Under the pieces are notes generated by a model, which did not search any database, was not told the DNA's origin, and worked only from the letters and a program-made list of their open reading frames with translations. Positions 9,578-49,331 of a stretch of DNA of 64,000 nt are shown piece by piece. The stretch comes from Bacteroidota bacterium (GTDB lineage Bacteria; Bacteroidota; Bacteroidia; Bacteroidales; UBA12077): assembly GCA_020444275.1 (NCBI GenBank), contig JAHLLG010000002.1, positions 124,001 through 188,000 on the forward strand, read 5' to 3'. Made by a program: the position numbers and the translations under genes. Position 1 is the stretch's first letter. The number at the start of each line of letters is the position of its first letter.

Positions 9578-10450
9578 TTATAAGATATTAAGCATTTGCT
9601 CTTTTATTTTTTCTAGTTCGTCTTTCATTAACACAACCAGCTTTTGTATATCAGAATCATTCGCTTTAGAACCAATAGTATTAATTTCGCGACCAATTTC
9701 CTGGCTGATAAATCCTAACTTTTTACCGTTGGATTCAGGTTCATTAAGCATCTCAACAAAATAGTTACAATGATTTGTAAGACGCACCTTTTCTTCTGTG
9801 ATATCTAATTTTTCAAGGTAGTAAATTAATTCTTGTTCAAATCTGTTTTTATCAAAATCTTTTTCATCAACAACTTTATTTAAACTCTCTTTTATTCTTT
9901 CTTTAATTTTTTCCGTTCGCTTCTTTTCGTAAGGATCAATTTTGTTTTTTGTTGTTTCAATAATATGAATTCGATTTTCGATATCTTCTTTTAAGTATTT
10001 TCCTTCCTGATTTCTAAACTGATCTAACTGATTCAGTGCTTCGTTAATTGTTTCGGTAATTTCTTCCCAATCGTTTTCATCAATTTCGTCACGCTCGGTA
10101 TTTAAAGTATCAGGCATCCGGATAGCCATTTGCAACAATTGCTCATTCTCAAGCCCCAGATCAGTAGCTAATGTTTTTAATTGGTTTATATAACTTTTAA
10201 CCACACTTGAATTAATTGTGGTTGCTCTGTTATCATCTGTGATCTCATAATAGAGTACAAACTCAACTTTTCCTCTCAATAATTTTTTCGAAACAATATT
10301 TCTGATTTCCAATTCTTTTTCTCGATAGATTCCCGGTATTTTGGTGTATAGGTCAAAGTTTTTACTATTCAGAGATTTTACTTCTACAATAACTTTTCGA
10401 TCTTTTAATACACATTCGGCTTTTCCATAGCCGGTCATAGATTTTATCAT
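9578..10450 (-). CDS. YicC-family endoribonuclease
   Basis: 290 residues beginning [12 protein letters not shown], the conserved YicC N-terminus, and ending in the DUF1732 region ([20 protein letters not shown]). The E. coli family member has been described as an endoribonuclease acting on small RNAs. First gene of the leftward group yicC-gmk-nadD-CNNM. Interestingly it faces away from the large RNA locus at 10822-11436, which starts 370 bases upstream of it on the other strand. Confidence 0.92.
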
Positions 10451-10808
10451 AGTATCCTATTCAAATTGTTGTATTTAAAGGCAAAGGTAAGAAAAATAGT
10501 TTATTAGTTATGAGTTCATTGTTTTGAGTTTTTGCTTAAAGCAAACATATTTTATCGGTTTGGGGTTTTTAAATGATAAAAATGCGTTTTAATAAAAAAT
10601 TAACAACTCATTTTTGCGATAAACTTGTTAATAACAGAAGATTATTAAACTTTTTTAATTGTTAATATCCCGATATTCAAATTAAAAATTTTATATAAAA
10701 ACTAAATATATTAAGGGATTGCTGAAATTAACAAATTGTTAAAAACCTTGGTTAATAACAAGTTAACTAATACATGCTGAAAAATTTTAAGGAAATATAA
10801 TCTCGTCG
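10451..10808. other. AT-rich gap with repeated GTTAA/TTAAC words
   Basis: No gene is seen in this stretch between yicC and the RNA promoter. From about 10600 to 10775 the word GTTAA or its complement occurs at least seven times, mostly as GTTAATAAC, TTAACAA or AGTTAACTA, in an otherwise A/T-dominated background. This looks like a cluster of protein-binding sites or a bent upstream region of the RNA promoter; no protein can be assigned. Confidence 0.4.
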
Positions 10809-10816
10809 TATATTTG
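10786..10816 (+). promoter_or_regulatory. Promoter of the large structured RNA
   Basis: TATATTTG at 10809-10816 is a perfect -7 octamer, identical to those before the HU gene and the 5217 small RNA. At 19 bases upstream the -33 element is TTTA rather than TTTG. Transcription would begin near 10822. Confidence 0.5.
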
Positions 10817-11022
10817 TTTTATCAGGTGAGAGATAAAAGGTTGCTCAAAAGAGTAAGGAGAAGAAGAAGATACTTAGTTGTATTTTTAACTGATCATCCA
10901 GTTCGAAAGAATTGCTTACTCCAAGAGCCGAAGTTCAAATCCTAAAGACTCGTTCCGAAAGATTTGATCAATCTCGAGAAAACGCCTAGCGTTCTTTAAC
11001 AGATTGAGCAGTAAGCAGCAAA

Positions 11023-11202
11023 ATGAACAAGAATTTTACGAGCAATCGTATAAGTTGGTCCATGAAGCTGAAACCGAAACATGATCTTCGGATTATAGAA
11101 AGGTTTGCAAAAGTTGAAACTAGCACAAACATAGTTTATACAGCGATTTATTCTGCAAAGAATACTGAAATGCTTAAACAAATTTGTGAAAAGTCAATTT
11201 GA
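11023..11202 (+). CDS. Possible 59-residue small protein inside the large RNA
   Basis: An ATG at 11023 opens 59 codons to TGA at 11200-11202. The peptide is basic, starts MNKNFTSNRISW and ends LKQICEKSI, with no signal or membrane segment. Codon choice resembles the neighbours. Against it: the upstream ribosome-binding sequence is weak, at least four stable-looking hairpins (two with GCAA loops) fall within the frame, and the opposite strand is also open over much of it. It may be translated, or be chance in a structured RNA. Confidence 0.25.
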   Translation: MNKNFTSNRISWSMKLKPKHDLRIIERFAKVETSTNIVYTAIYSAKNTEMLKQICEKSI

Positions 11203-11393
11203 TGTCTTACGAAATGCACTTCGTTCGTGAAGTTATACTGTAAAGTTTAACCAGCGAACAGCCTAACAATCAGACCTTAGTTGGAATGATTGAAAGGCTC
11301 AGGGCCTGCAGCAAAAGATAATCTCTTAAGTTGTTGTGCCAACCATAATAACAGTAATCTGATACAAAGGAAAACTTCGGTTTTTCTATTGTA

Positions 11394-11436
11394 AAAGGGA
11401 ATTAATCAACTCGATTAGTTCCCTTTACTGTTTTTT
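11394..11436 (+). terminator. Intrinsic terminator of the large RNA
   Basis: AAAGGGAATTAATC (11394-11407) pairs with GATTAGTTCCCTTT (11413-11426), 14 bp with one G-T wobble and a five-base loop, followed after four bases by six T. It sits 18 bases from the stop codon of the convergent MATE gene and may stop both transcripts. Confidence 0.85.
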
Positions 11437-11453
11437 ATAGGTATGATTATGAT

Positions 11454-12782
11454 TTAGATCACAGCTTTCTTTTTCCAGTTGCCGGTTAGGTAGTAGGAAT
11501 AAGCCAGTATTAAACCGACAAACCATCCTAATGGCATCGACCACCAAATACCAACTTCGCCAAAATGTTTTGATAAGAACCAGGCACTTGGTATACGAAT
11601 AACCCAAAGAGATATTAATGAAAAGAACATTGGGATGAGTGTGTCTCCAGCACCACGCATAACACCAGATATAGTAAACATTGCTGAGAACACAACATAA
11701 AATCCACCAACAATTAGCAAATATTCTCTACCTATTCGAATTACATCAGCATCGTTGGTAAATAAATTCATCAGAAAACTACTTCCGATTAATATAAAAG
11801 TTGACATTACAATGGATACTCCGGAAGACATCTTCAATGTAGAAATAAATCCGGTTCTGACGCGTTCCATTTTTTTGGCTCCTATATTCTGTCCAACAAA
11901 TGTGCTTAATGCGGCACCAAAATTCATTGCCGGGAGTGTTGCTAATGAGCCTATTCGCATTACTACGGAGTAGGCTGCAATTACATTAGTGCCAAAAGTA
12001 TTTACGATACTAATTAATGCGGTCATACCAATAGCAACAAATGTTTGCTGGATTCCAGTTGGTAATCCAATTCGGATGCTTTTTTTGAAAATACTTTTAT
12101 CAAAAATTAAATTGATAAAAGAAAACTGAATAATTTTATGCGTTTTATTTAGATAAATAATGGCTGTGATAAAAGCACCTGCTTGAGCTAAAACTGTAGC
12201 AATAGCCACACCGGCAATTCCCCATTTAAAAACTAATACAAAAAGAAGATCGAATCCAATATTAAAAAAGGTTGATATGATTAAAAAATACAATGGTGTT
12301 TTTGAATCACCTAAACCTCTTAGAATTGCACTAGTTCCATTAAATCCAAACGATACAATTACGCCTCCGATAAAGATATTAAAATATGTTTTAGCTTGGG
12401 GAATAATTTCTTCAGGTAATTGTAATAACCTAAATATATCTTCACTAAAAATGATACCTACAATACTTATGAAGATTGATGCAAAAAACAGAAAGATAAA
12501 AAGTGTATCAATGGTTCTCTTTACTTTTTCGATTTCTTTAGCACCAAAGTATTGCGAAATAACAATTGTACTTCCCGATGCAATACCAATGATTAATGAA
12601 AGAAAGGCAAATATTATAGGGAAGGATGCTCCAACAGCTGCAAGTGCTTCTTTGCCAATAAAATTTCCTACAATTATGCTATCTACAATATTATAAAGTT
12701 GCTGAAATATATTTCCGAATAACATCGGAAGCGCAAACTTTAAAATTAATTTCCCTTCTTTTCCTTCTGTTAAATCTCTCAT
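11454..12782 (-). CDS. MATE-family multidrug exporter
   Basis: 442 residues with twelve hydrophobic segments. The N-terminus (PMLFGNIFQQLYNIVDSIIVGNFIG) and the repeated FNGTSAILRGLGDSKTP / FTISGVMRGAGDTLIPM motifs, one in each half, are signatures of the MATE (MatE) family of Na+ or H+ coupled exporters. Full length. It is followed at once by the terminator shared with the large RNA locus and preceded by kynureninase with an 89-base gap. Confidence 0.93.
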   Translation of the reverse strand: MRDLTEGKEGKLILKFALPMLFGNIFQQLYNIVDSIIVGNFIGKEALAAVGASFPIIFAFLSLIIGIASGSTIVISQYFGAKEIEKVKRTIDTLFIFLFFASIFISIVGIIFSEDIFRLLQLPEEIIPQAKTYFNIFIGGVIVSFGFNGTSAILRGLGDSKTPLYFLIISTFFNIGFDLLFVLVFKWGIAGVAIATVLAQAGAFITAIIYLNKTHKIIQFSFINLIFDKSIFKKSIRIGLPTGIQQTFVAIGMTALISIVNTFGTNVIAAYSVVMRIGSLATLPAMNFGAALSTFVGQNIGAKKMERVRTGFISTLKMSSGVSIVMSTFILIGSSFLMNLFTNDADVIRIGREYLLIVGGFYVVFSAMFTISGVMRGAGDTLIPMFFSLISLWVIRIPSAWFLSKHFGEVGIWWSMPLGWFVGLILAYSYYLTGNWKKKAVI

Positions 12783-49243: not shown

Positions 49244-49255
49244 TGGCGGAGAAAG
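49206..49255. repeat. Copy 2 of the direct repeat, containing the real tRNA 3' end
   Basis: Near-identical to 48927-48977. It covers the tRNA-Ser 3' end (GGCGGAGAAA on + strand) and the terminator stem AGCAGCC/GGTTGCT with T run on the minus strand (49209-49234). Confidence 0.65.
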
Positions 49256-49331
49256 AGGGATTCGAACCCCCGGTACCTTGCGGTACAACGGTTTTCAAGA
49301 CCGCCGCATTCGACCACTCTGCCATTTCTCC
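49244..49331 (-). tRNA. tRNA-Ser (anticodon UGA)
   Basis: Minus strand. Acceptor GGAGAAA/TTTCTCC, discriminator G, encoded CCA, anticodon loop CTTGAAA (anticodon TGA) on a CGGT/ACCG stem, long variable arm (GTACCGCAAGGTAC) and T arm GGGGG-TTCGAAT-CCCTC. The long variable arm and anticodon fix it as Ser. Total 88 bases with CCA. A terminator follows at 49209-49234. Confidence 0.97.

Follow-up and report, generated by a model that had tools for sequence, protein, structure and literature searches.

A large structured RNA of Bacteroidia with candidate DnaA sites upstream of its promoter

A 64,000-nucleotide (nt) stretch of Bacteroidota DNA, hereafter the window, contains a locus that most likely encodes a structured RNA acting in trans, with its expression under DnaA-like control of the initiator type. 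To the full reading, judged from sequence, that the locus is a large, self-contained, structured noncoding RNA gene of a family outside Rfam 15, and that this RNA acts in trans, is subject to initiator-type control and travels as a relocating cassette, we assign a probability of about 0.72. The RNA gene occupies 10822–11436 (plus strand), 615 nt from the first base of its closing helix to the end of its T run, and lies in the gap between yicC (9578–10450, minus strand; Pfam YicC-like) and a MATE transporter gene (11454–12782, minus strand). As expected of a free-standing RNA gene, it has its own −7 box (TATATTTG) at the front and ends in an intrinsic terminator. A preliminary description of this DNA had reported the −7 box, GCAA- and UUCG-capped hairpins, a 14-bp terminator stem with a T run, and a transcript richer in G+C than the AT-rich DNA around it. 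All of these elements are present in the sequence, and the G+C content of the RNA is 35.8%, as against 22.1% in 10451–10821 (yicC, 30.7%; MATE gene, 33.6%; whole window, 33.0%).

Results

Architecture of the RNA

The two ends of the RNA are joined by a closing helix, P1, in which the 5′ strand UCAGGU (10822–10827; plus strand, as for all elements that follow) pairs with AUCUGA at 11357–11362. Two near-invariant motifs adjoin this helix, GAGAGAUAAAA on the 5′ side (10828–10838; GAGNGAUAAAA in the form typical of the family) and AUAAUAACAGUA on the 3′ side (11345–11356), so that inside P1 of the window copy GAGAGAUAAAA faces AUAAUAACAGUA. A second helix, P2, is formed by GGUU (10839–10842) and its partner AACC (11341–11344). 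Then comes a 5′ domain (10843–10928; helices 3–7 of the covariation analysis) that is closed by GCUC/GAGC and contains three inner helices (10851–10856/10915–10920, 10857–10863/10890–10895 and 10869–10873/10880–10884), a hairpin at 10899–10914 and a conserved loop, CUUARNUG. The long-range helix GAAGU/ACUUC (10930–10934/11218–11222; covariation helices 8–12) spans an interior, 10935–11217, that varies in length between homologues and is nearly missing from the two shortest copies (334 and 341 nt).

The 3′ part of the RNA is a series of hairpins. The first (11223–11259) shows strong covariation, with 8 of 8 inner pairs changed on both sides, and the same count was obtained for the second (11261–11298), which has an internal loop between paired arms; the third (11303–11340; helices 17–18) is closed by 11303–11307/11336–11340. 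Between P1 and the terminator lies a UUCG-capped hairpin (11363–11393; helix 19), and two other hairpins in the RNA are GCAA-capped (ACGA-GCAA-UCGU and UUCU-GCAA-AGAA). The intrinsic terminator (11394–11436) consists of a 14-bp stem, 11394–11407/11413–11426, followed by ACTGTTTTTT at 11427–11436, and 9 of the 14 stem pairs are changed on both sides among homologues.

The fold is far more stable than expected from composition, with an energy of −169.6 kcal/mol compared with −127.3 (sd 6.0) for 20 dinucleotide shuffles, none of which was as low (z −7.0). Since the opposite strand also folds with a z of −5.3, folding energy alone cannot choose the strand; the case for the plus strand rests on the promoter, the terminator and the pair changes.

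Base pairing is maintained by compensatory change

The start, the end and the helices of the RNA are kept in homologues. Counted on a tree of 33 of the 34 full-length rows (one near-identical row was left out, here and in the G-test below), 123 compensatory branch events fall on 112 consensus pairs, with at least one event in 64 pairs, at least two in 34 and at least three in 19. By comparison, sliding the 3′ partners by 1–4 columns left 2–14 events, and 200 random re-pairings averaged 6.75 and never exceeded 15. With a second, independent counter and all 34 rows, 89.9% of cells were paired, as against 26.9–42.6% in slid alignments, and cells with double changes numbered 538, compared with a shuffle mean of 205 and 94–135 on sliding; none of 500 shuffles reached the real alignment on any of five measures. 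The structure tested in these 112-pair and 34-row counts came from the same alignment, a circularity that is avoided by testing the structure predicted from the window sequence alone, for which 70.2% of cells were paired in the 27 rows from outside the genus (31.5–43.9% when slid). A stricter pairwise G-test, with a tree-based null that permutes substitutions, found none of 144,453 column pairs at E < 0.05; we think that this test has little power or an over-heavy null tail, but it still gave no support for covariation. The helices of the RNA show compensatory changes far above the controls, the G-test alone dissenting. Taken together, the covariation shows a family architecture made up of P1, GAGNGAUAAAA facing AUAAUAACNGUA, the 5′ domain, the variable interior, the 3′ hairpins and the terminator.

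The preliminary description had left a choice between a new large RNA class and an mRNA with a strongly structured leader and tail. The former holds up, there being covariation and no match in Rfam (see below); the latter does not, because frames are interrupted and are not shared between homologues. In particular, the seven copies from the genus (622–636 nt) have no long frame in common, and their longest stop-free runs, of at most 101 codons on the plus strand and 104 on the minus strand, lie in a frame that varies from copy to copy.

Distribution within the order and the class

BLAST located copies in 7 of the 20 genomes of the genus, our own included, the six others being 72–77% identical to the window copy; among ten high-quality genus genomes, three carry the RNA. 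The 13 genus genomes without a copy include two that are rated 100% complete, and the RNA is therefore dispensable. Two models were run against 393 order genomes: R1, a covariance model built on the 3′ part of the RNA, matched eight, and R2, built on the 5′ domain, matched 19 at E ≤ 1e-4, 11 of them strongly (E < 1e-13) and 8 weakly. On reading, all 8 weak matches proved to be wider relatives with both RNA ends. Fifteen of the 19 carriers hold a single copy and four (G094, G197, G288 and G394) hold two. The two copies of G288 (L117) lie close to each other on one strand, as do those of G094 (C28:14999–16628), and each of the tandem copies of G288 has a separate box palindrome before it (the second was used in one alignment, A7, only). 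The second copy of G197 (L118:621–1149), a divergent one, was located through its upstream palindrome and confirmed by both models, and the two copies of G394 (L045 and L046) are diverged and on different contigs.

A degenerate DNA pattern of the 3′ end, which draws on part of AUAAUAACAGUA, matched 30 contigs among 84,980 species, and the titles of these contigs name Bacteroidales, Prolixibacteraceae, Bacteroidetes or Bacteroidota without exception. (Note that part of these matches are genomes already found by the other search routes.) The 5′ motif lies 237–530 nt upstream in 29 of the 30; the remaining match, L087, whose retrieved sequence extends only about 240 nt upstream, was left out. Full-length copies (n = 34) measure 334–630 nt. 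Searches of phage, plasmid and viral collections returned no copy of the RNA, and a search of viral contigs for the YicC protein returned no match.

A scan of 395 genomes of the class with R2 gave weak matches in 47 genomes at E ≤ 0.1. Twelve of these loci were read, and both RNA ends were recognized in ten (not in L146 or L152). These ten relatives start with a close form of UACCAAGUGAGNGAUAAAAGG; their 3′ part carries AAUAACNRYA (in some, GAACNGYA) followed by the P1 partner and, where the stretch extends far enough, by a hairpin and terminator, and many of them, not all, have a TAnnTTTG-type box before the RNA. Among 19 wider members from this and other orders, 7 of the 8 weak order-scan matches included, all six P1 positions pair in 18 and five of six in the other, the 3′ partner having been taken as the best-pairing motif match, a choice that favours pairing. 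The P1 strands of these members are 199–623 nt apart. (L184 was left out of this pairing test and of the box counts for wider relatives given below.) A phylum-wide scan with a 5′ pattern, one mismatch allowed, matched 12 of 395 genomes, and four of these matches have a fitting 3′ end, namely our own genome and three of one genus; the other eight we take to be chance.

The RNA occupies different places in related genomes

The preliminary description had proposed aligning the corresponding gaps next to the MATE and yicC genes. Apart from G013, homologues are not to be found there: the other 13 genus relatives measured have no RNA in that gap, and copies lie elsewhere. The gap is 1006 and 1019 nt long in the two genus genomes that have the RNA there (our own and G013) and 81–262 nt in 11 relatives that do not. 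Gaps lacking the RNA also differ in length: in G017 and G010 the gap is 606 and 636 nt long, the latter being the maximum, with other content in which neither model finds the RNA. (A further match to YicC, diverged and of 53% identity, occurs in the genus genome G001, at C76:2889–3761, L240.) G012 and G016 carry their copy in another place, with a DUF4097 gene on one side and an alkaline phosphatase gene on the other (gaps of 934 and 903 nt); the corresponding gap measures 56–113 nt in eight other genus genomes. (The yicC–MATE comparison was made without G004, G006, G011, G015 and G019, and the phosphatase-gap comparison without G006.) The joint occurrence of array, promoter, RNA and terminator at different genome places in one genus, together with the absence of the RNA from the matching gaps of relatives, suggests relocation as one cassette that contains no open reading frame (ORF).

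Such behaviour recalls miniature elements of the MITE type, which are non-autonomous mobile repeats, short and ORF-less, found at different sites. The locus could on this account be a selfish element, its RNA and array serving their own movement or replication and rendering the cell no service. The changes of place within the genus and the RNA-free matching gaps would fit this, as would the patchy presence (19 of 393 order genomes), the presence of two copies in each of G094, G197, G288 and G394 (adjacent ones in G288) and the lack of any partner gene conserved over all copies. Several features, however, set the locus apart from MITEs or speak against a selfish element. The insert ends (10441–10660 and 11401–11500) have no direct or inverted 9-mer in common, and so show no terminal inverted repeats or target-site duplication of at least that length; a carrier genome usually has one copy (a single match in 15 of 19, two in 4); the unit contains a long structured RNA; and the phage, plasmid and viral collections searched hold no copy. 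Moreover, in other lineages the RNA has recurrent neighbours, with an enolase-type gene upstream in 12 loci, a UbiD-type gene downstream in 13 and both in 11 (names from a Pfam scan of one member per protein cluster), and the retention of the place after the enolase-type gene in 12 loci suggests long residence. We regard the selfish-element account as unlikely, though it is the strongest of the competing ones.

A DnaA-box-like array precedes the promoter

The box at 10809–10816 (plus strand), TATATTTG, is of the TAnnTTTG form, which we take to be the −7 promoter type, and transcription is predicted to start at about 10820–10823. The 22 bases that precede the RNA contain TAnnTTTG in 31 of 33 copies and TAnnTTTA in the other 2. 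Further upstream (10725–10772, plus strand) lies an array of boxes that is DnaA-box-like and, in the window copy, degenerate: an imperfect palindrome, ATTAACAAATTGTTAAAAAC (10727–10746), then GGTTAATAAC (10750–10759), then AAGTTAACTAATA. Each of the 33 upstream stretches compared (33/33) has a form of GTTATTAACAATTGTTAATAAC followed by at least one further half-site, about 45–100 nt before the RNA. A strict pattern for the core of the palindrome is found in 31 of the 33 copies; one of the other two has a TTATCAACA variant and one has half of the palindrome only. The palindrome of the window copy has more than 3 mismatches.

TTATTAACA occurs 30 times in the 33 upstream stretches, compared with 0.42 times in shuffles. 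The exact DnaA box, TTATCCACA, is found in none of the 33 copies of the narrow family, where TTATTAACA stands in its place, and occurs six times in 4 of 18 wider loci, compared with 0.01 in shuffles. A further element, TTATNNACA, is enriched in both sets (40 versus 3.1 in the 33 narrow loci; 20 versus 1.1 in the 18 wider ones). In seven carrier genomes from outside the genus, a search for the palindrome with up to 3 mismatches returned 13 sites, 11 of which lie before a copy of the RNA, and a reversed control pattern returned a single match, in G402. Genus genomes have the palindrome also in gaps without the RNA. Three such sites are in our own genome, G000 (C10:129423–129444, C3:18520–18541 and C8:14638–14659; L109, L107 and L108), where R1 finds no RNA, and one RNA-less palindrome gap lies, by eye, between ispE-like and dnaB-like genes, a pairing that recurs in G003, G007 and G013. 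The form of the boxes suggests DnaA as the putative binder of the array. DnaA, according to the accessible part of PMC11317965, also acts as a transcription regulator.

Boxes of this kind might instead mean that the locus is at heart a DNA-level replication element, an origin or a DnaA-titration site, with the RNA secondary. In favour of this, the DnaA-type boxes lie in AT-rich DNA directly upstream of the RNA, and the first 22 kb of the window show a dip in G+C skew, to −0.013, with positive values on both sides. This dip is only local; the lasting change in the sign of the skew is near 0.8 Mb (23 sampled pieces of the 1.28-Mb contig), and we therefore dropped an origin as the main reading. 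In addition, compensatory changes keep the pairing of the RNA along its whole length, and genomes may hold two copies of the locus or none. We consider a primarily DNA-level role improbable.

The RNA has no constant downstream gene and belongs to no Rfam family

Neighbouring genes differ between copies, and no partner gene is conserved across all of them. A cis-acting leader of the next gene, such as a riboswitch or attenuator, is a reading to which we give hardly any weight: 13 loci do have a same-strand downstream protein of one family (UbiD by Pfam, one member scanned), but in 9 of the 29 copies for which a downstream ORF is listed (the window copy and 8 others) the nearest one is encoded on the opposite strand, the cassette changes neighbours within the genus, and the terminator is conserved. 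We reject a cis-regulatory leader on account of this exchange of neighbours and the lack of a conserved same-strand downstream gene overall.

The comparison with Rfam called for in the preliminary description was made with Rfam 15 and gave no family match. At gathering score, no family matched the RNA in the window or the RNA in 36 further loci (6 from the genus, 16 further and 14 wider, of which L146 holds no recognizable copy), and permissive scans of four members, the window copy included, at E ≤ 5 gave chance-level matches to unrelated families only; the models of GOLLD and ROOL are absent from the matches of the window RNA at both thresholds. The only RNA in the window that reaches the Rfam gathering score is a tRNA-Ser (TGA anticodon; 49244–49331, minus strand). 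Identity with tmRNA or RNase P RNA was considered and rejected, as this genome has its tmRNA at C10:354078–354474 (174.9 bits) and its RNase P RNA at C9:764693–765031 (188.6 bits). That the RNA is a divergent member of a known large class (RNase P, tmRNA, OLE, GOLLD, ROOL, or a group I or II intron), which its similar size, joined ends and many hairpins might suggest, is highly improbable given these Rfam results and the presence elsewhere of the genome's own RNase P and tmRNA genes. No published description of the RNA was found in the open literature, including the accessible parts of PMC2864571, PMC8040213 and PMC12286853 (subscription papers and supplements lie outside this body of text). 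The RNA is new as a class, under the loose and pre-existing heading of 'large structured bacterial RNA'.

Discussion

The findings presented here argue for a large structured RNA that works apart from its neighbouring genes. Few RNAs of several hundred bases show structure conserved to this degree, and among those whose role is understood several are catalysts or parts of core machinery. In the mechanism that we propose, the RNA would be transcribed from its own promoter, end at its own terminator and act in trans, as a ribonucleoprotein scaffold or an RNA-only particle, and not via a neighbouring gene. The DnaA-type boxes, some 45–100 nt upstream of the start, may let DnaA, or another protein that binds the same sites, set transcription, and the level of the RNA would therefore follow replication status. 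The cassette would relocate, and be gained and lost.

The family is patchily distributed in several families of one order and in other orders of the class, and its two ends are kept at separations of about 200 to more than 600 bases. The combination of such an RNA with an initiator-type box array raises the possibility of a link between replication control and noncoding RNA. A more far-reaching proposal, which we put forward tentatively and think rather doubtful as a whole, is that a DnaA-box array and a large structured RNA make up, across the Bacteroidia, one relocating ORF-less cassette, a replication-coupled RNA device with fixed ends and a freely evolving interior that either feeds back on initiation or yields an RNA-only particle whose production follows the cell cycle.

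Several known systems resemble parts of the locus. GOLLD, ROOL and OLE, too, are bacterial RNAs several hundred nt long; covariation supports their elaborate structures, their functions are poorly understood, and GOLLD, like the present family, has one conserved and one less conserved region, as set out in the accessible part of PMC12286853. The RNA described here matches none of their Rfam models, and its two conserved ends enclose a variable interior. According to the same part of that source, ROOL and GOLLD genes belong to phages and prophages and often lie close to tRNA islands; by contrast, our RNA sits between chromosomal genes, was absent from the viral, phage and plasmid collections searched, and is 38 kb from the sole tRNA gene of the window. 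From the same phylum, 6S-flavo, Bacteroidales-1 and Flavo-1 (RF01685, RF01693 and RF01705 in Rfam) are structured RNAs that also came from comparative genomics, in a 2010 survey (PMC2864571, accessible part), and none of the three matched at the RNA loci scanned. Finally, promoters controlled by DnaA through closely spaced DnaA boxes (PMC11317965, accessible part) have rows of boxes beside the promoter, as does the locus studied here, where, unlike in those known cases, the sites are candidate DnaA sites and the unit that they would control is a structured RNA.
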